This document shows, piece after piece, positions 10,761 to 45,205 of a DNA stretch of 64,000 bases (position 1 is its first letter; each line of letters begins with the position of its first letter). The notes below the pieces were generated by a model. That model was not told the origin of the DNA, did no database searches, and worked only from the letters and a program-made list of their open reading frames with translations. The position numbers were made by a program, and so were the translations under genes. This stretch comes from an uncultured Eubacteriales bacterium. Its GTDB lineage: Bacteria; Bacillota; Clostridia; Oscillospirales; Oscillospiraceae. The DNA is taken from positions 1 to 64,000 of the forward strand of contig UQUO01000005.1 in the NCBI GenBank assembly GCA_900544295.1, read 5' to 3'.

Positions 10761-11928
10761 GTTGGTGCTGACCGGCAACTACGCCGCGGCCGAGGCCGCC
10801 GCCCTGTGCAGCCCGGACCTCATCGCGGCCTATCCCATCACGCCGCAGAGCTCCGTCGTCGAGCACCTGGCAGAGCTGGTGCACGGCGGAAAGCTGGACG
10901 CGGAGCTCGTGCAGGTCGAGTCCGAGCACTCGGCCATGAGCGTCGTGCAGGGCGCGGCGGCTGGCGGCGGGCGAGTGTTCACCGCAACGAGCGCCCAGGG
11001 CCTCGCGCTGATGTACGAGCCGTATTTCCGCATGTCCACCCTGCGCCTGCCCATGGTCATGGCCATCGCCACGCGCGAGATGACCTCGCCGGAGAGCATC
11101 TGGAGCGGCCAGCAGGACGTCATGTCCGTCCGCGACGCGGGCTGGATACAGCTCTTCTGCGACAGCAACCAGGAGATAGCGGATATGATCATCCAGGGCT
11201 ATATGATAGCCGAGCACCCGGAGGTAAGCATCCCTGTGAACGTCTGCTACGACGGCTTTTACAGCTCGCACCTCACCTCGGGAGTGGATATGCCCACGCA
11301 GGAGGAGGTGGACGCCTTCCTGCCGCCGCATGAGCTGAACTGCCCCGCGCTGCTCGACCCCGCCGCGCCGCTGGCCCTCGACCCCATGACTCCCGGCGAG
11401 CTGCTCATGCGCTACCGTGAGAACCACCTGGCCGCCATGCAGCGCGCGCTGGAGGTCATAGACGAGACGGACGCGAAGTTCGCCGCCGCCTTCGGACGCA
11501 GCTACGGCGGAGTGCTGAGCGAATACCGCATGGAGGACGCTGAGGTCGCCCTCATAACCACCGGCGGCATGACCGGCGCGGGCATGGACGCCGTGGACGA
11601 GGCGCGGGAGCGCGGAGTGCGCGCGGGCCTCGTAAAGCTCCGGGCCATCCGGCCCTTCCCGGCGGCGCGGCTGCGCGCGGCGCTCTCGGGCGTCCGGGCC
11701 TTCTGCGTCGTGGACAGGAGCGTCTCCTTTGGCTGGAACTGCGGGCCAATGTTTGTCGAGGCGCGCGCCGCGCTCGGCGGGGTGGACGAGAGGGCCTGCT
11801 TCTCCGCCATAGGCGGCCTCGGCGGGGCTGATATCTCCGTCGCGGACTTCTCCTCAGCTATAGCCAGGCTGGATAGCATAAAAGATGCGCCGGGCGTGTA
11901 CGACACGCTCTGGTTCATGAAGGATTGA
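10750..11928 (+). CDS. 2-oxoacid:ferredoxin oxidoreductase, alpha subunit
   Basis: The alpha subunit (pyrimidine-binding TPP domain and transketolase C-terminal domain), 392 residues. AYPITPQSS near residue 30 and the ES-E-H-S-A segment (QVESEHSAMSVVQGAA) are the family hallmarks, and the C-terminal domain has the KLRAIRPFP motif. The frame is open further upstream, but the ATG at 10750 follows GGGAGGTG and starts at the conserved region. The gene order gamma-delta-alpha-beta is the usual one. Confidence 0.94.
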   Translation: MGNKLVLTGNYAAAEAAALCSPDLIAAYPITPQSSVVEHLAELVHGGKLDAELVQVESEHSAMSVVQGAAAGGGRVFTATSAQGLALMYEPYFRMSTLRLPMVMAIATREMTSPESIWSGQQDVMSVRDAGWIQLFCDSNQEIADMIIQGYMIAEHPEVSIPVNVCYDGFYSSHLTSGVDMPTQEEVDAFLPPHELNCPALLDPAAPLALDPMTPGELLMRYRENHLAAMQRALEVIDETDAKFAAAFGRSYGGVLSEYRMEDAEVALITTGGMTGAGMDAVDEARERGVRAGLVKLRAIRPFPAARLRAALSGVRAFCVVDRSVSFGWNCGPMFVEARAALGGVDERACFSAIGGLGGADISVADFSSAIARLDSIKDAPGVYDTLWFMKD

Positions 11929-14440: not shown

Positions 14441-15568
14441 CTATTTTTGTCCCTGAGTGTATCCGAGTCCCATCCTGTCGGAGGGCGGATAACCAAAGTA
14501 GCTCTTGTAGCACTTGCTGAAGTAGGAGGCGTCTTCAAAACCGACCCGCCTTGCAATCTGCTGTATTTGCAGCTCACCGGCGTCTATCAGTTTTTTGGCC
14601 TCCGACATTCTGATGTCCCTGAGCGCGGCGTTGGGAGCTTTTCCGTAGGCCTCCTTGAAAATGCGTCTGAGATAGCCCTCATGAAAGTGCATCAGCTTGG
14701 CAAGTTCAGATATGTTGAAATTTGGCTCAGGGTAGTGCCGCATCAGCTGGTCATATATCTCCGCGGCGGTCTGACGGCCTTTTGGAGGCGCCTTGAGCGC
14801 CTGAGACGTCTTGCGGCATACCTCAAAGAGCGCCGCGCCCGCGCGGCCCTGAAGAAAACCGTCACGCATATAATTAAGCAGGTTCAGCTTGCTGTCAAAA
14901 GGCGCGGCAAGCTCCCGTTCACTTTCAAGCAGCCGCTGCATGCAGACCAGAGCGGGGAAGATATAAAGCCAAATATTTCTTCCCTGGGAAATGCCGTGGT
15001 TTTCAATGCAGTGGGCATATTGCATAACGATGTCGTGTACGCCCTCGTCCGCGCCATCCAGGAGTTTTGCCAGGAGCTTTTTGCACAGGCCCAGCACGGA
15101 TTGCTCAGGCGCGTCCTCCTCCAGCAGATATAGGACGTCGATGGCCGGAGAGGTGTCGGTCACGCTCCTTATGGCAGCCTGAGACAGACGGTCCATCCAG
15201 TGCTCATTCACGGTGCGGTAGAGAGCCAGATCAAGACTGGAGCGCGTGATGGGTTTGAGCAGAATGTCTGTAATGCCGAAGCGCGCTCCACTCTGGGCGT
15301 ATTTAAATTTCTCATGGCCCGTCACCAGAATGAACTGGCAGCGGCCTGAATTTGCACGGATGCGCTCAATGCTTTCAAGTCCGCTCATGCCGGGCATTTC
15401 CACGTCCATGATGACAATGTCCGGCTCCAGCTCAGAAACCATCTCCACTGCCTGTGCACCGTTTCGGGCATGGCCGAGCAGTTGGGTGTGCAGGCCGTCC
15501 CAGTCAATGCACTTTTTGACGTATCTCGCAAATATCTCGTCATCGTCCACTATTAAAGCCCTGAGCAT
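14441..15568 (-). CDS. Response regulator, YesN-like with AraC-type HTH
   Basis: A two-component response regulator of about 375 residues. The receiver domain begins ALIVDDDE and has the phospho-acceptor aspartate in VIMDVEMPG near residue 55 and a conserved lysine in LLKPI. The C-terminal 100 residues form an AraC/XylS double helix-turn-helix (IQQIARRVGFEDASYFSKCYK). The ATG at 15568 is better spaced from AGGTG than the GTG nine bases upstream. It follows its sensor kinase by about 24 bases, and YesM/YesN pairs typically control carbohydrate transporters, here probably the importer at 22.3-25.4 kb. Confidence 0.9.
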   Translation of the reverse strand: MLRALIVDDDEIFARYVKKCIDWDGLHTQLLGHARNGAQAVEMVSELEPDIVIMDVEMPGMSGLESIERIRANSGRCQFILVTGHEKFKYAQSGARFGITDILLKPITRSSLDLALYRTVNEHWMDRLSQAAIRSVTDTSPAIDVLYLLEEDAPEQSVLGLCKKLLAKLLDGADEGVHDIVMQYAHCIENHGISQGRNIWLYIFPALVCMQRLLESERELAAPFDSKLNLLNYMRDGFLQGRAGAALFEVCRKTSQALKAPPKGRQTAAEIYDQLMRHYPEPNFNISELAKLMHFHEGYLRRIFKEAYGKAPNAALRDIRMSEAKKLIDAGELQIQQIARRVGFEDASYFSKCYKSYFGYPPSDRMGLGYTQGQK

Positions 15569-15592
15569 TTTCAGCACCTGCCTGTCAGTATT

Positions 15593-28690: not shown

Positions 28691-29749
28691 ATGAGAGTTG
28701 CGGTAATAGGTGCCGGTCTGGTGGCAAAGACCTTTCATGTCCCCGCTTTTCTGGCTTGCCCCGGGGTCGAGATAAGCGCAGTATACGACAGGCGTCTGGA
28801 AAAAGCGGAAGCCCTGGCAGCGCCGCTGGGCGCAAAGGCGTTTACAGATTACGGCGAGCTTTTGCGCTCCGGCGCGGCGGATGCCGTCACGATATGTACC
28901 CGCACGGATATGCACTGCTCCATGGCGGTGCAGGCCGCAAAGGCCGGCAAGCACATCTTCCTGGAAAAGCCCATGGCCACAAGCGCCGCAGAGGCCAAGG
29001 AGATATGCGAGGAAACTGAGCGCGCGGGCGTTACGTTCATGCTGGGGATGCTCAACCGGTTCAGGACGGAGAGCCTTATCCTGACCGAGCGCCGCGAGGC
29101 CGGGTTGATGGGCGATATTTACCACGCCGACGCACGCTGGATAAGGCGGCGCGGCATACCCTCAAACGGCTGGTTCGTGCAGAAGGCGCTGTCCGGTGGA
29201 GGAGCAGGCATAGACATAGGCGTCCACGCAATAGACACTGCCTGGTACCTCATGGGCAGTCCCGAACCTGTGGCGGTCAGCGCCGTAACGCACAGCCGCC
29301 TGGGGGATGCCGGAGCCCGCGGCCTGAGCAGCTGGGGAACGGAAGCGCCCGCAGGCAGGCCTATGGACGTGGAAGAGGCGGCGGCCGCTCTGATACGTTT
29401 TGAAAACGGCAAGAGCATGACCCTTACGGTCAGCTGGGCAATAAACGGCCCGGAGGAAGACTTCAATCTTAAAATATACGGCACCAGGGAGGGCGCAAGC
29501 TTAAATCCTTTCGTAATTTACGGCATGGAGCAGGGCTATTGCGCCGACATACAACCGAAGTTCGTGCGTGATGACGCGTGGAAAGAGGGCTTCAAAAACG
29601 AAATAGCGCACTTCGTACACTGCGTTGAGAGCGGGAAGCAGCCTGTGAGCTCGGCGCGCAGCTGCTACACTGTGCAGCGAATGATAGACGCTATTTATGA
29701 ATCCGCTTCCCGAGCTGAGGAAATACGTTTGGATCGAGGTGAGGTATAG
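28691..29749 (+). CDS. Gfo/Idh/MocA family oxidoreductase 3
   Basis: An NAD(P)-binding oxidoreductase, 352 residues. GAGLVAKTFHVPAF starts the Rossmann fold, IFLEKPMAT carries the EKP lysine and GIDIGVHAIDTAWYLMG carries the D-x(3)-H active-site helix. It most resembles the myo-inositol dehydrogenase/3-ketoglucose-forming branch in motif layout. Its TAG stop overlaps the GTG start of the next gene by one base. Confidence 0.9.
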   Translation: MRVAVIGAGLVAKTFHVPAFLACPGVEISAVYDRRLEKAEALAAPLGAKAFTDYGELLRSGAADAVTICTRTDMHCSMAVQAAKAGKHIFLEKPMATSAAEAKEICEETERAGVTFMLGMLNRFRTESLILTERREAGLMGDIYHADARWIRRRGIPSNGWFVQKALSGGGAGIDIGVHAIDTAWYLMGSPEPVAVSAVTHSRLGDAGARGLSSWGTEAPAGRPMDVEEAAAALIRFENGKSMTLTVSWAINGPEEDFNLKIYGTREGASLNPFVIYGMEQGYCADIQPKFVRDDAWKEGFKNEIAHFVHCVESGKQPVSSARSCYTVQRMIDAIYESASRAEEIRLDRGEV

Positions 29750-31428
29750 TGGAGCTTGACAGGCATTGGTGGAAGGAATGCGTTTTCTACCAGATATATC
29801 CACGCAGCTTCCAGGACTCGAACGGCGACGGTATAGGCGACCTGCGCGGAATAATAGACCGCGTGGATTACCTCGCAGACCTGGGAATAGGCGGTATCTG
29901 GCTGGGCCCGGTTTTTGAGTCCCCTGGAGACGACATGGGCTACGATATATCCGATTATCGCCGTATCCTGGACATCTTCGGCACCATGGAGGACTGGGAG
30001 GAGCTCAGAGACAAGCTGCACTCTCGCGGTATCAGGATACTTGTGGACCTCGTGGTGAACCACACCTCGGACGAGCACCCCTGGTTTGTAAGTGCCCGCA
30101 GCAGCCGTGACGACCCGAAGCACGACTATTATATCTGGAGAGAGGGCAGGGAAGGGAAGGAGCCCAACAATTGGGCGTCCTTTTTCACCCCTTCCGCGTG
30201 GGAGTATAACCCGCAGACGGACGAATACTACCTGCACCTCTTCTCCAAAAAGCAGCCGGACCTCAACTGGCATAACGAAGCCGTGCGCAAAGAGGTATAT
30301 GAAATGATGTCCTGGTGGCTTGACAAGGGCGCGGACGGCTTCAGGATGGACGTTATAAACCTGCTGTGCAAAACCGACGGCCTGCCGGATGCCTCCGGGC
30401 CGACGGACATGAACGGCTATGTTTTCCCGGTTGAGCACATGTGCGACGTTCCGCCCATACACGAGTACCTACAGGAGATGGCGGAGCAGGTATACGCGGA
30501 CAAGGACATCTTCACCGTAGGCGAGTGCATAGCGCTGAACACCGAAGAGGGGAAGAAGTATACTGCCGGAAAAAAGCGCGAATTGGACGCCGTGTTCTCC
30601 TTCGAGCACATAGACATGGACGGCCAGCCGCTTGGCAAGTGGTATTACAGGCCCTGGGAGCTGCCTGAGCTCAAGGAGCGCCTGACCCGCTGGCAGAGCG
30701 AACTGCACGACGGCTGGCTCGGCCTTTTCTGGTCCAATCAGGATCAGCCACGGGCGCTCTCGCGCTTCGGCACCACGGGCAAGTACAGAGAGCGCTGCGC
30801 AAAAATGCTGGCGATGGTCCTGCATACGCTGCGCGGTACTCCGTTCGTCTATCAGGGCGAGGAATTGGGCATGGTAAACGTCCCGTGGACCGACGTGAGC
30901 CAACTCCGGGACATCGAGAGCCGCACTTTTGCAGAAAACTGTCGCCGAACCGGGGCGGGCGAGGAGTTTATGTGGGATGCAATACACCGCAAGGCCCGTG
31001 ACAACGCCCGGACGCCCATGCCCTGGGACGGCAGCCCCAACGGTGGCTTCACCAGCGGAACGCCCTGGATAATGCTCAACCCGGACAACGACGAGATAAA
31101 CGTTGAAAAGGCTCTGGCAGACCCTGACTCCGTCCTGCACTTTTACCGTCGCATCATAGCAATGCGCAAGGAAAACCTCATCATGCCATACGGCGAAGTA
31201 GAGCTGATATGGCCGGAGGACAAGCAGGTCTTTGCGTATTTTAAGCGCTTGGAGGGAGAGACCTGGCTTGTCGCCGCTAATTTCAGCGAAAACGAAGTTG
31301 TTCGCAGCTTCCCAGAGGGCGCCGCAGCCCCGGAACTGATACTCACGAACGCGGAAGACTGCGAGTGGCAAAGCGAAGGCCGCCTGAAACTTGCGCCGTA
31401 TCAGGCCGTCATATTGCGCCTTTCATAG
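29749..31428 (+). CDS. Alpha-glucosidase, glycoside hydrolase family 13
   Basis: A cytoplasmic GH13 enzyme of the oligo-1,6-glucosidase/trehalose-6-P hydrolase group, 559 residues. Region I is DLVVNHTSDEHPWF, region II is GFRMDVINLL with the nucleophile Asp, and region III has the acid/base Glu in VGECIAL. Region IV, usually NHDQPR, reads NQDQPR near residue 331: the conserved His is replaced by Gln while the transition-state Asp is kept. It would cut an alpha-glucoside taken up by the ABC importer. The start is GTG, coupled to the preceding stop. Confidence 0.9.
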   Translation: MELDRHWWKECVFYQIYPRSFQDSNGDGIGDLRGIIDRVDYLADLGIGGIWLGPVFESPGDDMGYDISDYRRILDIFGTMEDWEELRDKLHSRGIRILVDLVVNHTSDEHPWFVSARSSRDDPKHDYYIWREGREGKEPNNWASFFTPSAWEYNPQTDEYYLHLFSKKQPDLNWHNEAVRKEVYEMMSWWLDKGADGFRMDVINLLCKTDGLPDASGPTDMNGYVFPVEHMCDVPPIHEYLQEMAEQVYADKDIFTVGECIALNTEEGKKYTAGKKRELDAVFSFEHIDMDGQPLGKWYYRPWELPELKERLTRWQSELHDGWLGLFWSNQDQPRALSRFGTTGKYRERCAKMLAMVLHTLRGTPFVYQGEELGMVNVPWTDVSQLRDIESRTFAENCRRTGAGEEFMWDAIHRKARDNARTPMPWDGSPNGGFTSGTPWIMLNPDNDEINVEKALADPDSVLHFYRRIIAMRKENLIMPYGEVELIWPEDKQVFAYFKRLEGETWLVAANFSENEVVRSFPEGAAAPELILTNAEDCEWQSEGRLKLAPYQAVILRLS

Positions 31429-33322: not shown

Positions 33323-34064
33323 GTGAAAAAGCTATTTAGTCTTTTGCTTGTCGCAGCGCTGCTCATCGGTCTGCTCGCCGCCTGCGGAGAGCAGAAGGCG
33401 GCGCCCACCGGGGGCGAAAGCGGAGAGGGCAGTGGCCTTATCGGAGTTTGTATGCAGAACATGTCCACATGGGCGAGGTCGTCTCCGAGGCTGAGCGCAT
33501 CGAAAACCCCGTCTACTGCGAGATGATAGCCGAGCGCGTGACAAATCTGGCTGACTGCACCACTGAGATGGACATCTCCGGCGACAACCGCTCCGTCGTT
33601 GCGGGCGTGCTGACCGACGACCCGAACGTGCGTGTTATCATTGCGTATAACTCCCTTGTTTCCACGGCCTGGACTACGGCAAGTCCAACCCCAACAGCAT
33701 CGGCCTGTATTTCCCGATAGACGCGGAGCTGAACGGCGGCAACGCTGCCCTCGTCTGCTTTGACACCTCGCCCTACATTGAGAGCTTCACCTATGAAGAA
33801 GTGCTTGCCCGCGAAAACCTGATGGTCTACTGGGATGAGCAGAACGGCTACAACGACACCATGCAGGAGAATCAGGGAAGCGGGGAGGCCCCGGCCACCG
33901 CTGGCGGTGAATTCGAAGGCGGCACGAGCTACGTCGCCATGATGGAGGGCATAGGCGGCCAGGAGGCTCATCTGTTGGCCATAGGCTTTGATGCCATCAA
34001 AAACTATCCCAAGCCTGTCGTGCGCATACACAAGGACAAGGTCGGCGCCGGCAAGGCCTCCTGA
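33323..34064 (+). pseudogene. Secreted lipoprotein of unknown family, two frameshifts
   Basis: A GTG start after GGAGGAG gives a clean signal peptide and lipobox (LLAAC). The frame is then lost near 33466, where one missing base would join QNMS to HMGEVVSEAERIENP. It is lost again near 33658, where one missing base would join AYNSLV to FHGLDYGKSNPNSIG. The third segment runs to TGA at 34064. Repaired, the protein would have about 247 residues. The start resembles sugar-binding lipoproteins, but the rest matches no family I can name. It precedes three esterase-like genes on the same strand. Confidence 0.65.
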
Positions 34065-34077
34065 GGGGGTGGGTCCC

Positions 34078-35004
34078 ATGAATGAGCCTAAAACCTCGCC
34101 CGGCCTTGGCGCGCCGCCACCGGGCTGGACTCCGCCCATGGCAGATATCAGCTGGGTACGCCGGAAGTACCTTGACATTCCATATGCAGGGCAGAGCCCG
34201 AACCAGCGGCTAGACATCTATCTGCCGCAAGAGGGGGAGGGGCCGTTCCCTCTGCTCATACACGTCCACGGCGGCGGTTTCGCCTTTGGCGACAAGCGCG
34301 ACGACCACATGAACGCCTACCTAAAGGCCCTCGGCTGGGGCTGGGCCGCCGCTTCTGTGGAGTACCGCCTGAGCGGCGAAGCGCCCTTCCCGGCAGCCGT
34401 GCTGGACTGTCGCAGCGCCGTGCGCTATCTGCGTGAAAATGCGGCTGAATACCACCTTGACCCTTCGCGCTTTGCGGCGATCGGCGGCTCTGCGGGCGGG
34501 AACCTCGCAGCCATGCTGGGCATGAATGTGCCTAACGGCGCCTTCCCGGGCGAGGGCGACTCCGGGAGCTATGCAGCAGAACCCAGTGTCGGCGCCGCTG
34601 TGGCACAGTTCGGACCCATGAACTTCCGCACTATGGACGAGCAGGCGCGCCGCAACGGCGTCAGCAATGTGGACCATGACGAGCCCTTTTCGCCCGAGTC
34701 CCGCTATCTCGGCTGCCCAATACCTGGCGCCTCCGAGGCGCTCTGTGCAGCGGCTGACCCAGCGAGTTACGCCGGGCCGCGGATGTGCCCCATCTATGTG
34801 CAGCACGGCACCAGAGACAGGCTCGTCCCCTATGAACAGTCTGTAGAATTCGTCCGCGCGCTGCGCGAGAGGGGAGTTGGCGAGCGCGTGAGCTTCCAGC
34901 CACTAGAGGGCGCGGACCACGAGGACAAGGCGTTCTTCACAGATGAAAATCTAAACCATGTCAGGGCCTTCTTGGAGGCCATTTTGGGGGAGGGAAACAA
35001 ATGA
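34078..35004 (+). CDS. Alpha/beta hydrolase, BD-FAE-like esterase
   Basis: A cytoplasmic (no signal peptide) alpha/beta hydrolase of 308 residues. The oxyanion-hole motif HVHGGGF and the nucleophile elbow GGSAGG are typical of the hormone-sensitive-lipase/BD-FAE (feruloyl esterase-like) family; the acid Asp is probably in HGTRDRLVP and the His in GADHED. It likely cleaves small carboxyl esters. The ATG at 34078 follows GAGGGGGTGGG. It overlaps the next gene by four bases (ATGA). Confidence 0.88.
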   Translation: MNEPKTSPGLGAPPPGWTPPMADISWVRRKYLDIPYAGQSPNQRLDIYLPQEGEGPFPLLIHVHGGGFAFGDKRDDHMNAYLKALGWGWAAASVEYRLSGEAPFPAAVLDCRSAVRYLRENAAEYHLDPSRFAAIGGSAGGNLAAMLGMNVPNGAFPGEGDSGSYAAEPSVGAAVAQFGPMNFRTMDEQARRNGVSNVDHDEPFSPESRYLGCPIPGASEALCAAADPASYAGPRMCPIYVQHGTRDRLVPYEQSVEFVRALRERGVGERVSFQPLEGADHEDKAFFTDENLNHVRAFLEAILGEGNK

Positions 35005-36269
35005 CGAAGCGTATACCGGCCCTGCTCCTTGCGTTCTGTCTGCTGCTGAGCCTTGCCGCCTGCGGCAGCGAAGCGGAGCAGCCAAGCGCAGAGCCCACGC
35101 CGGAGCCTACGCCTTCGGCTCCGGCCCTGCCCGCGGGCAGCTACAGCTTTTCTGAAGCCGCGATGGGCGGCGCCTTCACAGTCGAGTGGGAGCTGGAGCT
35201 GCGCGAGGACGGCACATATACCATCATCGAGCACAACCCCTTCATGGGCGACCTCAGCTACGAGGGCGAGTACACCGTGGACGCCGACGGCGTGGTCACG
35301 ACCCTGCCCTTTGAGGGCGAACCGCCCATGGCCGAGTTTTTCGAGGCCGACAAGAGCTGCAAATGGACGCTCGACGGCGAAAACTGCAAGCCTGTCAACT
35401 ATGTAGAGAGCGGAGACGCCCCGGCGGAAGAGGGCGGCCTTGCAGGCATAAAATACGCCTCCAATTCCGAGGTCCAGGTGCTGGATATCCACCTGCCGGA
35501 GGGTGAGGGGCCGTTTCCGGTCATCGTGCTCGTCCACGGCGGCGGCTTTCTCTTCGGTGACCAGGCCATGCCCATTATCCAGCCGGTCATAGACGCCGGA
35601 ACGGCTGCGGGCTGGGCTGTTGTGAGCGTGGACTACCGCAAGTCGGGCGAGACCGAGTTCCCGGCGGCGCTGGCCGACGTAAAGGCCGCCGTGCGCTTCG
35701 TGCGCGCCAACGCAGAGCAGTACGGTTTTGATGCAGAGCGCCTCGCCATCTGGGGCGAGTCCGCGGGCGCTTACCTTGCGCTTATGACCGCCCTAACCCC
35801 CGAGGTCGCTGAGCTCAACGGCGACGTGACGGAGAATCTGGAGTGCTCCTCCGCAGTCTCGGCCCTCGTGGACTTTTATGGACCCGTGGAGTTCTGGACG
35901 ATGGACGCCGAATACGCCGCGCTGGGCAGGGAGGATACGAATTTCGCCACCTCCGAGAGCTTTGAGAGCAAATTCCTCGGCTTCCCCGTGGGGGAGGATG
36001 AGGCCGCGACCTACGCCTCCTACTGGGTTAGTTACACCTACGCCCTGCCTGCCGATTTCGCCCTTAGCGCCTGGATACAGGTGGGCGACGCCGACCAGAA
36101 CGTCCCGTATACCCAGTCCGTGAACTTTGCAGAGCGCCTTAGCGCGCTGCTGGGCGAGGACAGAGTCAGCTTCAGCATCATCGAAGGCGCGGCGCACGAG
36201 AACGCGCAGTTCTACACCGAAGAAAATCTTGCCGCTGTACTGGAATTCCTCAGCGGCGCGATAGGATGA
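35001..36269 (+). CDS. Lipoprotein alpha/beta hydrolase, BD-FAE-like esterase
   Basis: A surface-anchored esterase of 422 residues. Signal peptide and lipobox (LSLAAC) at residues 1-21, Pro/Glu/Thr linker to about 38, an N-terminal beta-rich domain of about 100 residues, then the hydrolase. HVHGGG-type motif VLVHGGGFLFGD, elbow IWGESAGAYLAL, acid Asp in VGDADQNVP and His in GAAHENA complete the triad. With the cytoplasmic paralogue next door it could release an ester group outside the cell and again inside. The preferred ester is unknown. Confidence 0.88.
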   Translation: MTKRIPALLLAFCLLLSLAACGSEAEQPSAEPTPEPTPSAPALPAGSYSFSEAAMGGAFTVEWELELREDGTYTIIEHNPFMGDLSYEGEYTVDADGVVTTLPFEGEPPMAEFFEADKSCKWTLDGENCKPVNYVESGDAPAEEGGLAGIKYASNSEVQVLDIHLPEGEGPFPVIVLVHGGGFLFGDQAMPIIQPVIDAGTAAGWAVVSVDYRKSGETEFPAALADVKAAVRFVRANAEQYGFDAERLAIWGESAGAYLALMTALTPEVAELNGDVTENLECSSAVSALVDFYGPVEFWTMDAEYAALGREDTNFATSESFESKFLGFPVGEDEAATYASYWVSYTYALPADFALSAWIQVGDADQNVPYTQSVNFAERLSALLGEDRVSFSIIEGAAHENAQFYTEENLAAVLEFLSGAIG

Positions 36270-36275
36270 CAAAAA

Positions 36276-37734
36276 ATGATCACAGGCACTTGGTTTTTCG
36301 ACGAAAAATACAACTGCTGGTGCCTTGAGGATGTGCCGTACACCGAGAGGCCAACCTCTCCAAGATACCAGCAGCTGAGCATCTTCGTCCCCGCGCCCTA
36401 CATGAGCGCGCCGGGCGTCGTGGATGAGCAGGGCCGCTTTGGCCCTTACACTTCCCGCACAGTCCCGGTTGTATTTGAGAACAACTCCGCCGGCTATATG
36501 CAGATGCCCCACACCTGGCTCGGCGGCCCGCGCTGCTACGCGGAGCAATATTTGGAGCGTGGCTTTGTGTATGTCACCTGCGGCTGCCGCGGCCGCGAGT
36601 CGAGGGACGCGGAAGGCAGGCTGACAGGCAAGTCCCCGGCGGCGCTAGTGGACCTCAAAACTGCCCTGCGCTTTTTGAGGCACCACCGCGCTCAACTGCC
36701 CGGCGACTGGGAACGCGTCGTCTCTGCGGGCTGGAGCGCAGGAGGGGCCATGAGCACATTGCTGGCCGTATCCGGCGACAACGCCGTCTTTGACGCCTAT
36801 CTAAAAGAAAATGGCGCATATATGGACGAGAGCGACGCCGTCTGGGCAGCGCAGATCTATTGCCCTATAGTGGATCTGCAGCACGCGGACATGGCCTACG
36901 AGTGGTTTTTCCACGCTGACAAGACCTGCGAGGACTCTCCCGCCGGCCCCGCAGAGACGATGACGCCATTTAAGGAAGCGCTTTCCGCGCTGCTGGCGAA
37001 GAGGTACGCGGAGTATTTTAACTCCCTTGGCCTGCGCGCACCCGGCTCTGGTGAGACGCTGAGTATAGAGGACGGGCGAGGCGGCTCCGCCCCCGCCTGT
37101 GCCTCCGGACGCTCCGCCCCCGCCTCCGCTTGGCGAGCTGATGCTCCGCCCGCCTAAGGGCGTTGACGCGCCGCACTTTGAACCGCCCATGCTGCCCGTC
37201 AAGGGCACGGACAAGCGCGCCTGGCTAAACTGGGACGGTGAGAGGGCACATATCAGTGGAATAGACGACTACGTCCTTAACCACCGCCGCCGCATGAAGC
37301 CCTGCACCTCCTTCGATAAACTCAGCCGCGACAGCGGCGAGAACGAAGAATTTGGCTCCCCGGAGCAGAACCTGCGCCATTTCAGCCGCGATGTTGCAGA
37401 AGCGCTCTCAGAAATGTCTGCAGAATATCCCGAGGCAAAAGCGCTTGCCGCAGAATACGCCCGCGACATAGCGCAGCCGGGCCTGGAGGACATTGTGCGG
37501 CTCATAGACCCCTACAGCTATATCGGCCAGCCCGGCAGCAAGCAGGCTCGGAGCCTCCGCATAAGAGTAGGCGCCCGAGACGCCGACACCTCACCGATGA
37601 TAGGCTTGACCCTGGCGCTCAGCCTGAGCGCCGCCGGCATTGACACCGACTACGCCCTGGTCTGGGACCAGCCTCACAGCGAAGCCGACTATCCCGGCGA
37701 AGTCTGTGACTGGATAGACTCACTGAGCAAATAA
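36276..37734 (+). pseudogene. Subtype B tannase-like hydrolase, frameshifted
   Basis: The first frame (from ATG 36276) has an alpha/beta hydrolase fold with elbow SAGWSAGGAMSTLL and a strong resemblance to tannase-like proteins. It breaks in a proline-coding, C-rich linker. Removing one C from the five-C run at 37090-37094 continues the protein as GSAPPVPPDAPPPPPLGEL and then the C-terminal part with AWLNWDG and the acid/His segments (ALVWDQPHSEADYPGE). The repaired length is about 485 residues. Tannases hydrolyse gallate esters; the assignment is by motif memory and moderate. A homopolymer indel, real or technical, is likely. Confidence 0.7.
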
Positions 37735-37782: not shown

Positions 37783-38556
37783 TCAGTTGCAGGTGAGCCA
37801 GCCGCCGTCGGTGGGCAGAACCACGCCGTTTATGTACTTTGCCTCGTCGGAGCAGAGGTAAACCATAGCCTAGGCGGAGTCCTCGGGCATACCCAGGGTG
37901 GGGAAGGGGGTAACGCTCTTGAACCAGGCGCTGATGCGAGGGTCCTCGTACAGATAGGCCGTCTTGGGCGTCCAGACAAAGTTGGGCGCGAGGCAGTTGA
38001 AGCGGATGCCGGTCTTCGGGCTGACCTTCTTGACCATGTTCAGCGTTCCGTTCTGGATGGCGGCCTTGGATATGGGGTAGCTGCTGAAGCCGCTGCCGTT
38101 CCAGGAGAGGGCGGTGGAGGAGGAGAAGTTGAGGAAGTTGCCGCGGATCTCGTTGTCGATCATGTACTTGAGCACGGTCTGGTAGGAGTGCAGGACGGCG
38201 TCGAGGTTCATATCGAGCACCGCGTGCAGCTTTTCCACGGTGAGCGTATCCCAGTCGCCCGCATACTCGCCGACGGCAAAGCGGGCAGCGCCGTTTACGC
38301 AGATATCGACCGTGCCGTAGTTTTCGAGGGCGGTGGCGAGCAGCTTGTCCCAGGTCTCGCGCTGGGAGGCATCGCCGACAACGGCGACGGCCTGGCCGCC
38401 GGCGGCCACTATCTCGGCGCACTTTTCCTCGACATGGGGGTCAATGTCGCACATCACGATTTTCGCGCCCTCCTGGCAGAAGAGCTCGCTGGCCTTGCCG
38501 CAGATGCCGCCGTCGGCGCCGGTGATTATAGCAACTTTATTGAGAAGACGATTCAT
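37783..38556 (-). pseudogene. Short-chain dehydrogenase/reductase with in-frame TAG
   Basis: A Rossmann-fold SDR with TGADGGICG cofactor loop, NGA motif in CVNGAARF, catalytic Ser in NFSSSTAL and the Tyr/Lys pair in SYPISKAAI. A TAG at 37872-37870 falls 28 codons before the natural end. The frame continues beyond it as AMVYLCSDEAKYINGVVLP and TDGGWLTCN, the usual SDR C-terminus, to a TGA at 37785-37783. A CAG-to-TAG change is the simplest cause. TAG is used as a normal stop elsewhere here. The catalytic core is intact, so the short product might keep some function. It closes the BaiE/OYE-like operon. Confidence 0.8.
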
Positions 38557-38572
38557 TTGTATTTCCTCCTTA

Positions 38573-39112
38573 TCAGCCCTTATTGCGGTTCTTTATGCAG
38601 CGAAGCTGGTTTTCCATGACGCCGTAGGACAGGCGAACATAGGAGATGCGCCACACGCCATCGCTGCACTTGAGCATGTCGTCAACATAGAAGCCCCAGC
38701 CAGCGTAGACTTCTCCATTGTCCTTGTAGGTGTGCCTGTCGTTCATGCGGGTGAGGACGCGGGCGTGGGTATCGTCTATGAACTGAACGATTTGGTTGTG
38801 ACCGAAGTGCATGGGGACCATGTTCTCCTGCGGCCCGATCGACCACTGATTGAGGCCAACCTGCTCGTCAGGCGTGAGGTGCTTTTCACCGCCGCCCATG
38901 CTCACGCGGAAGCCCTCGGGGGCCTCGTCCGTGTAGACATCCTTGAAGACCTCCCAGTCGTTGAGGTCGTTGGCCCAGAAATAGCGCGCCTTGGTAGCAA
39001 GGATGGCAGGGATCTCCGCAAGCTGCTCCGGAGTATACGGACGGACGTCGCGTATGATCTCACGGGCCAGGGCGAGGGTCTCCTCGTTGTAAGGAATGGT
39101 GATGTTCTGCAT
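38573..39112 (-). CDS. SnoaL/NTF2-like protein, BaiE-type
   Basis: A 179-residue SnoaL_4-like (NTF2-fold) protein. The pattern of residues around MPMHFGHNQ, the YAGWGFYVDD strand and the final WRISYVRLSYG strand resembles bile acid 7-alpha dehydratase BaiE and related steroid isomerase/dehydratase-like proteins. It may catalyse a dehydration or isomerisation, or bind a ring substrate. Genes on each side are an SDR and an old-yellow-enzyme reductase, a combination also seen in bai operons. The substrate is not known. Confidence 0.75.
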   Translation of the reverse strand: MQNITIPYNEETLALAREIIRDVRPYTPEQLAEIPAILATKARYFWANDLNDWEVFKDVYTDEAPEGFRVSMGGGEKHLTPDEQVGLNQWSIGPQENMVPMHFGHNQIVQFIDDTHARVLTRMNDRHTYKDNGEVYAGWGFYVDDMLKCSDGVWRISYVRLSYGVMENQLRCIKNRNKG

Positions 39113-39146
39113 GGCGATTTCCTTTCTATATGATATTTTGTTGCGC

Positions 39147-41063
39147 TCAGATGGAGGCTACGGCCTCGTAGGCCTCAGTGGTGGCGGCCAGAATGTTGCG
39201 GCACTTGGAGCTGTCGCCCACGGGGATGACGCGGCAGATGTCGGAGAGCTCCTCGCCCCTGGAGGCGTCGGGGGACCAGCCCATGGCCAACAGGACGGTG
39301 TCGCAGTCTATGTGCCGCCTGCCCTCGGCGGTCTCGACGATTATGCCCCCGGCGTCCACCTCGACGAGCTTTGTGCCGGTGAGGTAGGTCCCGGTGCCGG
39401 CGGCCATGAGTTCCTTGAGTACATTCGCGTTCTGAACAAAGGGCGGGTCGGGCATGAGCTTGTCGGCCATTTCAACCACGGTCACGTCATGGCCGACGGT
39501 GTTGAAGTGAATAGCTGCCTCTATACCAACCTGTCCGCCGCCGATTATTGCAAGGTGTTTTCCAAGCGGCACGTAGTTGCGCAGGGCTTCCTCGCAGGAG
39601 TAGACATTGCTGCGGTCGAGGCCGGGGATGCTCTTCGGGCGCACAACGTCGCCTCCGGCGGCCCAGATGAGCACGTCGGGCGCAAACTCCGCCACAGTCT
39701 CGCGGTTGGCCTCCTTGAAGAAGCGGACAGGTACCCCTGCCTTGATGAGCTGGACGTTGTAGTAGTTCGGCAGGCGGAGCATGTCGGCCTTCATGTACGG
39801 CGCGGAGGCCGCGAGCGTCTTGCCGCCGATGGTCCCGCTGCGCTCCCAGAGCTCGACCTCATGTCCGGCCTGCTTGGCGAGCAGCGCCGCAGTGCAGCCG
39901 CCGGGGCCGCCGCCGACCACCAGAACGCGCTTCGGCGTCTCTGCTGCGGGGGCCTTGCGCTCGTCCTCGAAACCGGCGTAGGGGTTCAGCGCGCAGCGCA
40001 GGTGTACGCCCTTGAGCACGCTGCCAATGCAGCCCTCGTTGCAGGAGATGCAGGGGAGGATGTCCTCGGGCCTGCCCTCGGCGAGCTTGTTCGGCATGTC
40101 GGGGTCGGCAATGAGGCCGCGGCCGATGACGGCGAAGTCGCAGATGCCGTCGCGCAGGGCGGCGGAGGCCTTTTCGTAGTTGGAGAGGCGGCCGTGGGTC
40201 AGCACGGGGATGGAGACGGCCTCGCGCACGGCCTTGGCGCTGTGCAGCTGCAAAACGGCCTCCTGATAGAACACCGCGGGCATGGAGAGCTGCCACTTCT
40301 CATAACAGCCCGCGTCCACGTGGAGGGCGTTCACGCCGTTCTCCTCGAGGTATTTGGCCAGCTCCAGGCCCTCGGGCAGTTGGCGGAAGCCGGGGTAGGG
40401 CACGCCGTGGTCGGGGCAGAACTTGACGAGGATGGGCGTGTCCTCGCCCGCGCACCTGCGCACGGCCGCGATCTGCTCGAGCAGGAAGGTGGCGCGGCCC
40501 TTGACGTCGCCGCCGTATTTGTCGGTGCGGGTGTTCCAGGCGGCGGTCAGGAACTGGTCGTTCAGGTAGCCGCCGTAGGCGTGCATCTCAAAGGCGTCCG
40601 CCCCGGCTGCGGCGCAGAGCCTGGCGGAGCGCTCGGTCTCCGCGATGAGGCGCTCTATCTCCTCAACGCTCAGCTCGTGACACTTGACGTTGGGAGCGTA
40701 GAGCCAGCCGCAGGCCGAGGCGCTTATCGGCACGGGGTAGAGCTTGCTGGGCCCGGCCATGCGCCCGCAGCCAGGCATGAGCTGGACGCAGACCTTGCAG
40801 CCGACCTCGTGCGCGCGGTCGCATATCTCCTTGAAGTACTTGAAGTTGTCCTCGTTGATGACCAGGGAAGCGCTGGTGTCCTCAAAGTAGTCCGTAACGG
40901 TCATGTTGACCAGTATCATAGCGGCTCCGCCGCGAGCACGAGCCGCGAAGTACTCCACGGCTTTTCGGTTTATATCACCGAAATGTGGCCCCATTGGCGC
41001 CATGATGATGCGGTTTTTGAGTTTCAGCGAGCCAATCTCGCCGGGTGACATCAGGTTAAGCAT
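39147..41063 (-). CDS. Old-yellow-enzyme family Fe-S flavin oxidoreductase (BaiCD/BaiH-like)
   Basis: A 638-residue enoate/2,4-dienoyl-CoA reductase-type enzyme. The N-terminal FMN TIM barrel (NRIIMAPMGPH) is followed by the 4Fe-4S motif CISCNEGC with a fourth Cys in RCALNP, then FAD-binding (VVGGGPGGCTAAL) and NAD(P)-binding (IIGGGQVGIEAAI) domains. Such enzymes reduce C=C bonds next to carbonyls, for example in bile acids, cinnamates and flavones. The ATG at 41063 is better spaced from GGAGAG than the ATG six bases upstream. It shares an operon with MFS, SnoaL and SDR genes. Confidence 0.9.
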   Translation of the reverse strand: MLNLMSPGEIGSLKLKNRIIMAPMGPHFGDINRKAVEYFAARARGGAAMILVNMTVTDYFEDTSASLVINEDNFKYFKEICDRAHEVGCKVCVQLMPGCGRMAGPSKLYPVPISASACGWLYAPNVKCHELSVEEIERLIAETERSARLCAAAGADAFEMHAYGGYLNDQFLTAAWNTRTDKYGGDVKGRATFLLEQIAAVRRCAGEDTPILVKFCPDHGVPYPGFRQLPEGLELAKYLEENGVNALHVDAGCYEKWQLSMPAVFYQEAVLQLHSAKAVREAVSIPVLTHGRLSNYEKASAALRDGICDFAVIGRGLIADPDMPNKLAEGRPEDILPCISCNEGCIGSVLKGVHLRCALNPYAGFEDERKAPAAETPKRVLVVGGGPGGCTAALLAKQAGHEVELWERSGTIGGKTLAASAPYMKADMLRLPNYYNVQLIKAGVPVRFFKEANRETVAEFAPDVLIWAAGGDVVRPKSIPGLDRSNVYSCEEALRNYVPLGKHLAIIGGGQVGIEAAIHFNTVGHDVTVVEMADKLMPDPPFVQNANVLKELMAAGTGTYLTGTKLVEVDAGGIIVETAEGRRHIDCDTVLLAMGWSPDASRGEELSDICRVIPVGDSSKCRNILAATTEAYEAVASI

Positions 41064-41093
41064 TGACATCTCTCCTTAATTAGATTCACATAC

Positions 41094-42344
41094 TCAGGCG
41101 CGGAGCTTCTTGGAGGAAGAGAGCGCCGTGAAAGTACAGACGGCTATGAGCGCGTAAGCCGCCATGCAGGCGTACCAGGCCACCTGGTAGCTGCCAAGGG
41201 CGTCACGCAGCCCGGAGGTGAGCATTGGGCCTATCATGCATCCGGCCATGAACGCCGTGTTGCCAAGCCCATAGATGGGGCCGAAATCCCTGTGTCCGAA
41301 ACACATGCCGGTGAGCAGCGGCGGCGCGAGGGCGGTTATGGCCGAACCGAAGGGGAGGATTATCATGGACGCATAGCTGGACCACTCGCCCAGGCCCGGC
41401 ACCAACACAAGGAACACGAGGGCGCCGATTCCGAGAATCGCCGTAATAAGAGAGCCGCGGCCAAGCCCCAGTTTGTCGATTATAGGTCCGACAATGAGTT
41501 TCGCCGCTATACCGACGCCGCTGTATACGGCGAATACAGGCGCATAGTCAATGCCGTTTTCGATGAGATAGGTAGGAATCTGCGTAGCAACGCCGGCGGC
41601 GACTATGCCGCAGCACACAAGGCAAAGCACGTAGAGCCAGAAGGCGCCGGTTTTGACGGCCTCGCCGCGGCTCAGCCCGGCCCAGCCGGAGGAAGCTGCA
41701 GCGCTCTTAGCGGCGTTTTCAGTTACGCCGGACTTCCTATAGGGTTCAAGCCCCATATCTTCGGGAGCCTTTCGAACAAACAGCAGCACGAGCAGCGCAG
41801 TACCGAATACTATGGCTGCGGTCACGCGGAAGCCGACTCGCCAGCCCATATTCTCAATGATGCCCGACGCCAGCCCGGAGAAGAGCACACCGCCAAGGCC
41901 GGAGCCGGTGAAAACAATGCTGGTTACCAGGGCCTTTTTGTCCACAAACCAGCGGGAAATTATGTAGTTTATAGGTACATAGGTCATTGCCGAGAGCGAA
42001 AAGTTTGCTACAAAAAAAGTTATGTACAGCTGCCAAAGACTCGTGATGTAGCTTTGTGCCAGCATTGCCAGCGCTGCAACCGCGCCGCCAATGAACATCC
42101 AGAGCTTGGTGTTGCCTTTGGTCACAAATCCGGCGGCAAACAGACTGAAGACCATTCCGGCAATTGTAGAGGCGATGTTAGAGATGTTGAACTCAACATA
42201 GCTGCTCCCGAACTCGGTGCAGATGGGTACCTGGTAGTAGGAGTAGAAGTTGCTGATAAAGACCATCGGCAGCATCGTCACCAGGAACAGCGTTATAACA
42301 ACGACCCAGCCGTAAAAGAATTTCCCACCTCGTTTTGCTTGCAT
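41094..42344 (-). CDS. MFS transporter
   Basis: A major facilitator superfamily protein, 416 residues, with twelve hydrophobic helices and the family linker (RWFVDKKALVTSI) after helix 4. It begins the operon with the OYE-like reductase, SnoaL-like protein and SDR, and so probably imports or exports their substrate or product, like BaiG in bile acid operons. The start has AAGGAGGA upstream. Direction and substrate are unknown. Confidence 0.9.
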   Translation of the reverse strand: MQAKRGGKFFYGWVVVITLFLVTMLPMVFISNFYSYYQVPICTEFGSSYVEFNISNIASTIAGMVFSLFAAGFVTKGNTKLWMFIGGAVAALAMLAQSYITSLWQLYITFFVANFSLSAMTYVPINYIISRWFVDKKALVTSIVFTGSGLGGVLFSGLASGIIENMGWRVGFRVTAAIVFGTALLVLLFVRKAPEDMGLEPYRKSGVTENAAKSAAASSGWAGLSRGEAVKTGAFWLYVLCLVCCGIVAAGVATQIPTYLIENGIDYAPVFAVYSGVGIAAKLIVGPIIDKLGLGRGSLITAILGIGALVFLVLVPGLGEWSSYASMIILPFGSAITALAPPLLTGMCFGHRDFGPIYGLGNTAFMAGCMIGPMLTSGLRDALGSYQVAWYACMAAYALIAVCTFTALSSSKKLRA

Positions 42345-42585
42345 TTTTATCCTCCTTGCGCGGAGCGGTACCCCGCCGCCGCAGCGTATTTTGACCTTGG
42401 GGCGGCCGGCTCGTCCCTGGTCTATGTCTGTTAAAAGGTTATCAGATTAAATGACTTGCCACAAATGAACGAGAATGACAAAAGGTGCCGCCATTGCCTG
42501 TGAGTGCTTAAAATTGCAGCAACATGAATCAATGAAAATACACAATTTAATATCAAAGTATCCGGCAATACGCCCGCTGTAAGAC

Positions 42586-42614
42586 TTGTAATCTCAGATA
42601 GAAATGTTTATAAT
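42586..42614 (+). promoter_or_regulatory. Promoter of the HTH regulator at 42668
   Basis: TTGTAA (42586-42591) and TATAAT (42609-42614) are separated by 17 bases. It is in the 323-base AT-rich interval 42345-42667 between the MFS operon and the divergent regulator. A minus-strand promoter for the MFS gene near 42430-42460 (TTGTGG, TAACCT) is much weaker, as expected if it needs activation. Confidence 0.75.
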
Positions 42615-42667
42615 CAATAAATAGTTAAACAATTAGCATTATATCTTTCGGAGGGTCGGAGGACGCC

Positions 42668-44089
42668 ATGACGTTTGGTCAAACATTGAAGCAATTATTG
42701 ACCCTGAGCGGCATCAAGTCCGCGCACCTGGCGGACGCACTTGGATATGACACGAGCTATATAAGCCGCTGGGTAAACGATATCAAGTTGCCGTCGCTAA
42801 AGAACAATGAAGACCTGTTTTCTAAAATATCCCGCACGATAGTAGACGGCAGCGATGAGGACGCGATAGAGCGGCTCTGTCTGGCGTGCGGCTCCGAGCA
42901 CGCCTGGCTTGAGGAGTCGCTTGAAGCGGCGCTGAAGACCGCCTACGACAATGCGAGCAAGCAGGCACAGGGGCCGAGCCTGACCCCAAACGCCTTGCTG
43001 CTGATGGGAGGCAGGCTTCCAGAGCTCACATCCGTGTTTGCCGACGCCATCATTCGCTCAGCGGAGGAGAAAGGCAGCAGCTCGGTAAACGTCACCGTTA
43101 ACGTCCCGCTGCACATTTACAGCAACCGCAACATGGATTTTTGGCAGGACATACTGGCAAACCCCAAGGTCGGCGGAAACCTGTCTATAACAGTCGAGCA
43201 AGTTGTAGAGATGTCCTCTTTTGAGGCAAATATAGACAGCTACTGCGCCGCGATAATGACGCTGTTGCGCTTTGACAAGGGCGTGCGCTACGAGTTTCTG
43301 CTTGGTGACACCGTATCAAACGCTGGCTGCAGCTTTATAACTATAGAGAATACCCTCGTTTGTAACGTTCTCGAAAACTGGCTGACGCACGAGGAGGATC
43401 TTTTGATATGTTCAGACCCTGGCGTTGTGCGTCAACTGAGCTCAAAGCTCAGCAGTGCGCTGAAATTTTTTCAGCCGCTCATCAGCTATTCGGATAAAGA
43501 CAACCTGGAGTCTAGTCATTTCCTGTATGACTTTGTCATGTCCGGCTCTCTGCGATATTTACTCACTGTTATGCACCCGATATATATGGATGACGACTTT
43601 CTCGCCAAGCTTGCCGTACGCTACCTTACCGACCCGCCTGACAGCGACTTTCACAACTATTACAATAGCCTCTGCTCTAACATGGAGCGCGAGGTAATAC
43701 TATACCGCACCGCGCTGCTTGAGTACATCTACAGTGGGCGCATCTATCTCTTCGGACGTGAGATGCAGTTGGATAAAGCGGACCGCACGGCGCATTTAAA
43801 GCAGCTGTTGGAGAACATACGCTCAGGAGCGTGCACGCTGAAAATTCTCAATGACGACAACCCGCTGCTCTGCCGCAAGGATGCGCGGCTGTCGGTATAC
43901 CTGAGCCGTAGCGCGGGCTTTATGGCTTCAAACGAAAGCGACTGGTACTCCTCCTTCCGCTTCTGCTCGCACAGGGTTGTGGAGCTGTTCAACACCTTTT
44001 TCACTCACCTGTGGCAGCTGGATGACGAATATTTGCTGACAGGTTCTGACGCTGAGGAATTTATTCAACGCGGCCTTATGCTTATGTAA
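42668..44089 (+). CDS. HTH (XRE-like) regulator with large C-terminal domain
   Basis: A 473-residue protein. The N-terminus is an XRE/Cro-type helix-turn-helix (SGIKSAHLADALGYDTSYISRW, shown in part). The remaining 400 residues have no motif I recognise; there are mixed alpha/beta stretches and no membrane helix. Its place directly opposite the MFS-OYE-SnoaL-SDR operon makes it the likely regulator of that operon, with the C-terminal part as a ligand or partner-binding domain. The ATG follows GGAGG. Confidence 0.8.
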   Translation: MTFGQTLKQLLTLSGIKSAHLADALGYDTSYISRWVNDIKLPSLKNNEDLFSKISRTIVDGSDEDAIERLCLACGSEHAWLEESLEAALKTAYDNASKQAQGPSLTPNALLLMGGRLPELTSVFADAIIRSAEEKGSSSVNVTVNVPLHIYSNRNMDFWQDILANPKVGGNLSITVEQVVEMSSFEANIDSYCAAIMTLLRFDKGVRYEFLLGDTVSNAGCSFITIENTLVCNVLENWLTHEEDLLICSDPGVVRQLSSKLSSALKFFQPLISYSDKDNLESSHFLYDFVMSGSLRYLLTVMHPIYMDDDFLAKLAVRYLTDPPDSDFHNYYNSLCSNMEREVILYRTALLEYIYSGRIYLFGREMQLDKADRTAHLKQLLENIRSGACTLKILNDDNPLLCRKDARLSVYLSRSAGFMASNESDWYSSFRFCSHRVVELFNTFFTHLWQLDDEYLLTGSDAEEFIQRGLMLM

Positions 44090-44152: not shown

Positions 44153-44749
44153 TTATTTGTCGAAAGCGGGATTAATTGCGTATACGTTTTTCTGGTCAAG
44201 CTTCTCCGTGGCTATGCGGAGGGCTTCGCCGAAGCGCTGGTAGTGTACGACCTCGCGCTCGCGCAGGAAGCGGATGACGTCGCTGACGTCTGGGTCGTCG
44301 CAGAGTCGGAGGATGTTGTCGTAGGTCACCCTGGCCTTCTGCTCGGCCGCCATATCCTCGGTGAGGTCGGCAATGACGTCGCCCTTGATGCCTATGGCGG
44401 CGGCGTTCCAGGGAGCGCCGGACGCAGCGGTGGGGTAGACGCCTGCGGTGTGGTCCACAAAAAAGGCTTCGTAACCGGCCTTTTTGATTTGCTCTGGCGT
44501 CATGCTGCGCGTCAGCTGGTGTACGATGGCGCCTATCATCTCGAGATGCCCCAGCTCCTCCGTGCCGATGTCCGTGAGCAGCCCCTTGAGCTCGGGATAG
44601 GGCATGGAGTAGCGCTGGCTCAGGTACCGCAGGGAAGCGCCCAGCTCGCCGTCCGGCCCGCCGTACTGGCTGATTATAAACTTGGCCAGGGCCGGGTTGG
44701 TGTTTTTGATTTTAACGGGGTATTGCAGCTTCTTCTCATATACGAACAT
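44153..44749 (-). CDS. cotJC: Spore coat protein CotJC, manganese catalase-like
   Basis: A 198-residue di-manganese catalase-family protein of the CotJC group. Metal-binding Glu and His are in TDIGTEELGHLEMIG and in AAEQKARVTYDNIL with REREVVHYQRFG. In B. subtilis CotJC is a coat protein produced in the mother cell. It starts three bases after the CotJA/B gene, so the two are coupled. Confidence 0.9.
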   Translation of the reverse strand: MFVYEKKLQYPVKIKNTNPALAKFIISQYGGPDGELGASLRYLSQRYSMPYPELKGLLTDIGTEELGHLEMIGAIVHQLTRSMTPEQIKKAGYEAFFVDHTAGVYPTAASGAPWNAAAIGIKGDVIADLTEDMAAEQKARVTYDNILRLCDDPDVSDVIRFLREREVVHYQRFGEALRIATEKLDQKNVYAINPAFDK

Positions 44750-44752
44750 TTT

Positions 44753-45205
44753 TCAGCCCTCCTTGACGTCGCTGTAATCCCAGGGCCAGGGGTCGTTCAG
44801 CCAGGTGTAGCTCTTGGCGCCCGAGAGGTCGGAGAGGCCGAGAGGCCCGAAGCGGGCGACGTATTCCTTGCGGCCCTCCTCGTAGAGCTTGAGGAAGGAC
44901 TTGAACGTTTCAAAAGCCTGGGTATCCGAAGCGTGCGTGTCCAGATAGAGCCCCAGCTCCTTGGTCACGAAGCCGAGCGCCATCAGTTCGCGCAGCTCAG
45001 TGGTGTCGGCGGGCATCTGGTTCACGATGTTTTTAAAGGGCAGATCGAGGCCCGGGAACAGCGTGCCGCGGGAGAGCGCCTCGGCGCTCTTGTAGGCGGG
45101 CTCGCTGCTCTGCTGCGCAGGTATCTGCGACAGCGCGAGGGGCGCGCACGCGGGCAGGCTGCCCTGCTTGTAGGTGCAGGAGCCCTGTGTATCAGTCTTT
45201 TCCAA
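44753..45205 (-). CDS. Spore coat protein, CotJA-CotJB fusion
   Basis: One 150-residue frame joins both small coat proteins. Residues 1-60 look like CotJA (LAL-S-Q--Q, then EALSRGTLFPGLDLPF), and residues 65-150 like CotJB (LRELMALGFVTKELGLYLDTHASD, in part, then FGPL and the end WLNDPWPWDYS). In most spore formers these are two genes. The order before CotJC is preserved, which supports the reading. They may form a catalase-bearing coat layer. Confidence 0.8.
   Translation of the reverse strand: MEKTDTQGSCTYKQGSLPACAPLALSQIPAQQSSEPAYKSAEALSRGTLFPGLDLPFKNIVNQMPADTTELRELMALGFVTKELGLYLDTHASDTQAFETFKSFLKLYEEGRKEYVARFGPLGLSDLSGAKSYTWLNDPWPWDYSDVKEG

Follow-up and report, generated by a model that had tools for sequence, protein, structure and literature searches.

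A recurring SnoaL and old yellow enzyme gene module in an uncultured Oscillospiraceae bacterium, with a possible role in free-steroid dehydroxylation

The stretch of DNA analyzed here (the window) comprises 64,000 nucleotides from an uncultured Eubacteriales bacterium of the Oscillospiraceae (GenBank assembly GCA_900544295.1, contig UQUO01000005.1, positions 1 to 64,000). Between positions 37783 and 44089 it carries four minus-strand genes and a divergently oriented regulator gene, which we read, with a probability of about one half, as a self-contained anaerobic module for the dehydroxylation of a free steroid of the bile-acid or steroid-hormone type. The four genes specify a transporter of the major facilitator superfamily (MFS), an iron-sulfur flavin ene-reductase of the old yellow enzyme (OYE) type, a dehydratase-like SnoaL_4 protein and a short-chain dehydrogenase/reductase (SDR). 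Judged from its sequence and its distribution the module is a genuine, rare and recurring one, and it is best read as an additional clade in which a steroid dehydratase is paired with an ene-reductase, with no coenzyme A (CoA) genes beside it. The features are as follows.

41094-42344, minus strand: MFS transporter, 416 amino acid residues (open reading frame [ORF]; Pfam MFS_1, 109 bits)
39147-41069, minus strand: Fe-S flavin OYE-type ene-reductase, 640 residues, of the clade with the HAYGGY-type motif (Oxidored_FMN, 166 bits; Pyr_redox_2, 88 bits)
38573-39112, minus strand: SnoaL_4 (NTF2-fold) dehydratase-like protein, 179 residues, beside the BaiI clade (Pfam SnoaL_4, 48 bits)
37870-38556, minus strand: SDR alcohol dehydrogenase, 228 residues, shortened by an in-frame TAG (adh_short, 111 bits)
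37783-37869, minus strand: remainder of the SDR frame beyond the TAG, up to a TGA (same-frame read-through)
42345-42667, no strand: divergent intergenic region of 323 bases, presumed to hold an operator (none found by 9-mer or palindrome comparison)
42668-44089, plus strand: regulator, 473 residues, XRE-type helix-turn-helix plus phospholipase-D-like domain (Pfam HTH_3, 20.6 bits; structure model)

The spacing of 24, 34 and 16 bases between the MFS, OYE, SnoaL and SDR genes, together with a purine-rich stretch (read as a ribosome site) 5′ of every ATG, suggests that these genes form one operon. A first-pass annotation, made from the letters and ORFs, had named these four classes of enzyme and transporter, which Pfam bears out, and an opposite-strand helix-turn-helix protein of 473 residues, which corresponds to the ORF at 42668-44089 (+). 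It had also remarked on the lack of CoA ligase and CoA transferase genes; a Pfam scan of 40 window proteins returned neither.

Recurrence of the gene set

The first-pass annotation proposed looking for the same genes in other genomes, and the set does recur. Homology searches of a database holding about 5.8 billion sequences, at E ≤ 0.001, required shared words and so missed distant kin; they returned 74 SnoaL homologues among 95 candidates and 35 regulator homologues among 7996 scored candidates. A scan of species genomes yielded 22 related loci (L001-L022), in 18 of which a window-type OYE (at least 47% identity) lies within two genes of the SnoaL gene, the exceptions being L002, L003, L008 and L022. 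At L013 two ORFs separate this pair; a second SnoaL_4 protein (11288-11800) is encoded there between SDR and OYE. Window-type SDR genes (at least 39%) are present in 13 of the 22 loci, the divergent regulator in ten and a window-type MFS gene (at least 41%) in five. All five genes occur in four loci, three of them in the order of the window (L004, L006 and L021) and one, from the complete genome of Blautia parvula (L020), in another order; L005 matches the arrangement of the window as far as its stretch reaches. Four loci (L001, L008, L017 and L019) are short contigs, where the absence of a gene means little. Because the set recurs in other genomes, the grouping of OYE, SnoaL, SDR and MFS is more than chance. 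The genes, the predicted fold, the conserved residues, the clades and this shared neighborhood are what the analysis shows.

Two of the exceptions have a different partner. In L002 (4212-6632) and L003 (9869-12048) a SnoaL protein with what reads as an export-type N-terminus is followed by an exported-looking FAD_binding_2 protein in place of an OYE, with a MerR regulator upstream of the two. The arrangement may represent an extracellular counterpart of the dehydratase/reductase pair.

The proteins and their nearest known relatives

The first-pass annotation equated the four genes with BaiG, BaiCD/BaiH, BaiE and BaiA of the bile acid dehydroxylation (bai) operon, and suggested that phylogenies of the OYE and SnoaL proteins be compared with Bai proteins. 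The reference operon was that of G345 (L087), with a BaiE core identical (100%) to that of Clostridium scindens BaiE (PDB 4leh). What the window shares with it is the combination of OYE, NTF2-fold dehydratase, SDR and MFS proteins, and with it the logic of dehydration followed by ene-reduction. The one-to-one correspondence was not supported: in the trees the SnoaL protein falls beside BaiI and outside the BaiE clade, the OYE falls outside both BaiCD and BaiH, the SDR shows 23% identity to BaiA2 (E 1e-8, BLAST only), and no BLAST match at E ≤ 10 links the MFS protein to BaiG. Nor is BaiB or BaiF found among the scanned window proteins.

Both its predicted fold and the Pfam model place the window SnoaL protein among the SnoaL_4/NTF2-fold dehydratases. 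Its nearest named relative among those tested is BaiI (29% identity, E 2e-19); the BLAST match to BaiE has E 0.056. It retains, as Y44, D49 and H102, the Tyr-Asp-His residues common to BaiE and BaiI, which we take to be the active-site residues of BaiE. In a tree of 59 rows the BaiE clade is set apart by a long branch (support 100/99, length 1.84), and the window family lies on the BaiI side, neighboring yet outside the 9-row BaiI clade (99/96). The deepest fork of the family has support of 86/94, which is not strong, and L102 and L052 sit on long branches. Since genomes G011 and G016 each hold a BaiI-clade protein as well as a window-family SnoaL, it would be too simple to equate the two genes. 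The function of BaiI is itself unproven.

The window OYE is 31% identical to BaiH and 29% to BaiCD (BLAST). In a tree of 67 rows its family forms an 18-row clade (100/100), distinct both from the BaiH clade and from that of BaiCD and its relatives; L018, L019 and L007 join the window in an 8-row sub-clade (100/99). At the positions where steroid-hormone 5β-reductases have N166 and S171, counted from the catalytic Tyr (Y168 in the window), the window protein has G167 and Q172 (compared with the available text of PMC12238238). The NCBIfam BaiCD model gives it 364 of the 825 bits needed. Assignment of BaiCD by this score was dropped, most of the eight annotated regions around over-cut-off proteins lying outside bai operons, and for that reason weight is given to the trees, to the order of the genes and to the N/S residues.

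Two further systems invite comparison. The 5β-reductase, Δ6-3-ketosteroid reductase and 3β-hydroxysteroid dehydrogenase (HSDH)/isomerase families of Arp et al. 2025 include OYE relatives acting on free steroids, from which the window OYE is separate by clade as well as by its Gly and Gln; in the text of that paper open to searching (PMC12238238) neither "SnoaL" nor "dehydratase" was found. Hsh2 and Hsh3 of Sphingobium likewise dehydrate hydroxysteroids, and Hsh2 is called an NTF2-like BaiE homologue, but they belong to another group of organisms and a degradation pathway, and Hsh3 is an EthD-type protein (available text of PMC12175502). No prior description of the window OYE/SnoaL clade was found in those parts of the literature that were searched.

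For the MFS protein the best NCBIfam matches, an L-lactate carrier (120 of 320 bits) and a conjugated bile salt carrier (101 of 400), are both below cut-off. The structure model of the regulator combines an XRE helix-turn-helix with a phospholipase-D-like domain, its HTH_3 score being below the Pfam cut-off of 23 bits. A phospholipase-D-like domain on a DNA-binding head is also found in the TrmB/TrmBL2 regulators, whereas BarB of the bai operon is of the AraC type. As to an operator, no 9-mer was common to at least four of the ten intergenic regions compared and no palindrome was shared; L020 was dropped for want of a start motif, L005 was left out, and some downstream edges are ORF starts and not proven starts.

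An in-frame TAG (37870-37872) closes the SDR ORF; read past it, the frame continues to a TGA at 37783. The left edge given by the first-pass annotation, 37783, is therefore a stop codon of that frame and not the end of the SDR ORF itself. All eight aligned relatives are uninterrupted at this site. We interpret the TAG as either a stop or an error in the sequence, because TAG likewise terminates other plausible window genes (14441-15577 and 29749-31428, both with Pfam matches).

Genomic context and the proposed pathway

The case for steroids comes largely from the neighbors of related pairs. G012:C2 (also L012) holds a bai operon with a divergent BarB-like gene (44%). Reading along one strand, BaiB (56%), BaiCD (67%), a second BaiCD-like OYE (48%), BaiE (71%) and BaiA2 (73%) are followed by further SDRs, BaiF (82%), an FMN_bind/FAD_binding_2 protein, BaiH (79%) and BaiG (49%); about 40 bases past BaiG come a family SnoaL and then a family OYE, close to the contig end. 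The part of this operon at 3246-6404 of L012 includes, beside the FMN_bind/FAD_binding_2 protein, an SDR near to 7α-HSDH (333 of 350 bits).

Loci L018 and L019 combine a SnoaL and an OYE with a second OYE, whose motif, HCAHNYLPHS, carries the N and S seen in the steroid-hormone type, and with a PF01073 protein that shares 46-47% identity with the C-terminal half of L067, a fused OYE protein of 1165 residues. Fusions of 5β-reductase with 3β-HSDH/isomerase, and their activity, are described by Arp et al. 2025 (available text of PMC12238238); in L018 and L019 proteins of both these types share an operon with window-family members. The divergent gene upstream in L018 is of the AraC type (34% to BarB), and a PF01073 protein is encoded in L007 as well, at 39% identity to the fused part of L067. 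OYE ORFs of about 1160 residues (L055, L056, L057 and L067), from three genomes of the family of G018, resemble the published fusion, and their C-terminal halves match the PF01073 protein of L018.

In L015 the contig that carries a bai cluster also carries a SnoaL-OYE pair, at a distance of about 10 kb. Firmicutes bacterium CAG:103 (L011), a candidate for bile-acid dehydroxylation in the available text of PMC9426597, has the module on contig C89 and bai genes on contig C134. Among 300 genomes of the family of G001 the family SnoaL is found in eight, a BaiE-clade protein in six and both in four; BaiE-clade genes thus occur in 4/8 genomes with the family SnoaL vs 2/292 without it (Fisher p 3e-6, uncorrected for kinship). 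G018 has a distant module (L052) whose regulator is 25% identical to that of the window and whose SnoaL lies on the BaiI side. At 4900-12318 of L052 (G018:C150) this same-family regulator accompanies SnoaL, MFS, SDR, an OYE over the BaiCD cut-off, and a further SDR.

Taken together, this context favors steroids over flavonoids or phenolic acids, though it falls short of proof, and we consider the substrate to be on balance probably a steroid. Of the free cyclic ketones or enoates suggested in the first pass (a steroid, flavonoid or phenolic acid), the first accordingly fits the setting of the relatives and the other two have become less favored.

The reactions and their order, a free steroid as substrate, entry without CoA activation and the part played by the regulator are surmised. 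The MFS carrier would import the substrate, and the SDR would convert a ring hydroxyl to the ketone or back. Using its Tyr-Asp-His set, the SnoaL protein would eliminate water, giving a new C=C bond conjugated to the ketone, and the Fe-S OYE would reduce that bond. The XRE/phospholipase-D-like regulator may sense the substrate or an intermediate and control the operon. In L018 and L019 a longer chain can be envisaged, in which the isomerase would convert a 3β-hydroxy-5-ene to a 3-oxo-4-ene, SnoaL would remove a ring hydroxyl such as that at C7, the family OYE would reduce the new C=C bond, and 5β-reduction would follow. The window unit would then represent the middle part of this chain, with the SDR providing the hydroxyl/ketone step. 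The position of the hydroxyl, for example C7, is a guess guided by BaiE and by what is hypothesized for BaiI in the available text of PMC10382948 and PMC12175502.

Competing explanations and significance

Several observations weigh against free-steroid dehydroxylation. The second His of the HxxH motif is replaced by Gly in all 18 family OYEs, while it is His in 32/32 BaiCD-type proteins and 9/9 BaiH proteins; substrate anchoring in the OYE therefore differs from both. Forming a 4-ene-3-ketone from a saturated 3-hydroxysteroid would be beyond the four genes alone, unless the OYE also oxidizes, and the window SDR is truncated. No bai or 5β-reductase gene adjoins the set in the window or in L004, L006 and L021, the loci nearest to its type, and no BaiE-type match at E ≤ 0.001 is present in G001, G004, G005, G006, G007 and G021, genomes near the clade of the window whose completeness is not stated. 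One homologue carries the label Paenibacillus polymyxa, a species not obviously associated with the gut, and L007 is titled goat reticulum, where the supply of steroid is doubtful. BaiI homologues of Sphingobium showed no 7β-dehydratase activity when expressed (available text of PMC12175502), which weakens, without excluding, the odds of a 7β role. SnoaL-OYE-SDR is preceded in L016 and L017 by a CoA_transf_3 gene (identity to BaiF 38% and 34%, respectively); a free substrate is for this reason something we infer for the window type and not a rule of the family. Finally, the genes next to the module are a local hint of a plant substrate.

These neighbors are two adjoining esterases of the BD-FAE family (33988-35004 and 35001-36269, plus strand), followed by a tannase-type (subtype B) gene that is divided between two reading frames (36276-37157 and 37099-37734, plus strand), either broken or the product of a sequence error; NCBIfam positions 20-283 fall in the first ORF and 311-463 in the second. 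Esterases and tannase are a possible plant-ester hydrolysis unit. With this second interrupted gene alongside, the in-frame TAG of the SDR suggests decay of the local stretch or sequence errors. On the other side of the module (44153-45205, minus strand) are a Mn-catalase-like ORF (44153-44749) and, 3 bases away, a second small ORF.

The leading alternative retains dehydration and ene-reduction and applies them to a non-steroid free cyclic ketone or enoate (a plant triterpenoid, a flavonoid, a quinate-type compound or a phenolic acid). The esterase and tannase genes, the goat reticulum locus and the unusual active-site motif of the OYE would fit this, but a conserved link to the former was rejected, since among the 22 loci the esterases are matched in L003 only and the tannase in none (in L001 the gene beyond the SDR reads as a sensor kinase); relatives of the module are, moreover, located in bai and steroid-hormone-type operons. 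We regard this alternative as rather unlikely. It is improbable that the module works on CoA esters as an accessory arm of a bai pathway (e.g., for 7β-dehydroxylation) that draws its ligase or transferase from another part of the genome. The CoA_transf_3 genes of L016 and L017, the pairs in or near bai genes in G012 and L015, and the co-occurrence with BaiE-clade genes, uncorrected as it is, speak for this reading, but no CoA gene adjoins the module in its window type, which includes regulator and MFS, and the genomes listed above gave no BaiE-type match at E ≤ 0.001. More improbable still is that SnoaL is a ketosteroid double-bond isomerase and no dehydratase, in a module reducing Δ5-3-hydroxy steroids.

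Free-steroid dehydroxylation remains our preferred reading. A bolder form of it is offered only tentatively. Here SnoaL and OYE would together make up a third dehydratase/ene-reductase system, not assigned before, that dehydroxylates free steroids independently of CoA and includes the missing gene for a dehydroxylation of different stereochemistry (e.g., loss of the 7β-hydroxyl), and the regulator would typify a new class of steroid sensor with an XRE/phospholipase-D fold.

Host exposure to bile acids and steroid hormones is shaped by gut bacteria, and the available text of PMC12175502 and PMC10382948 states that 7β-dehydroxylation in gut Clostridia still lacks a verified gene. Members of a dehydratase clade with its own ene-reductase are now seen within a bai operon and within operons of the steroid-hormone type, and also as a regulated unit standing by itself. 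The module may help to explain gut steroid conversions that lack a proven gene, and the gene set is small enough to be tested directly for reactions such as 7β-dehydroxylation.
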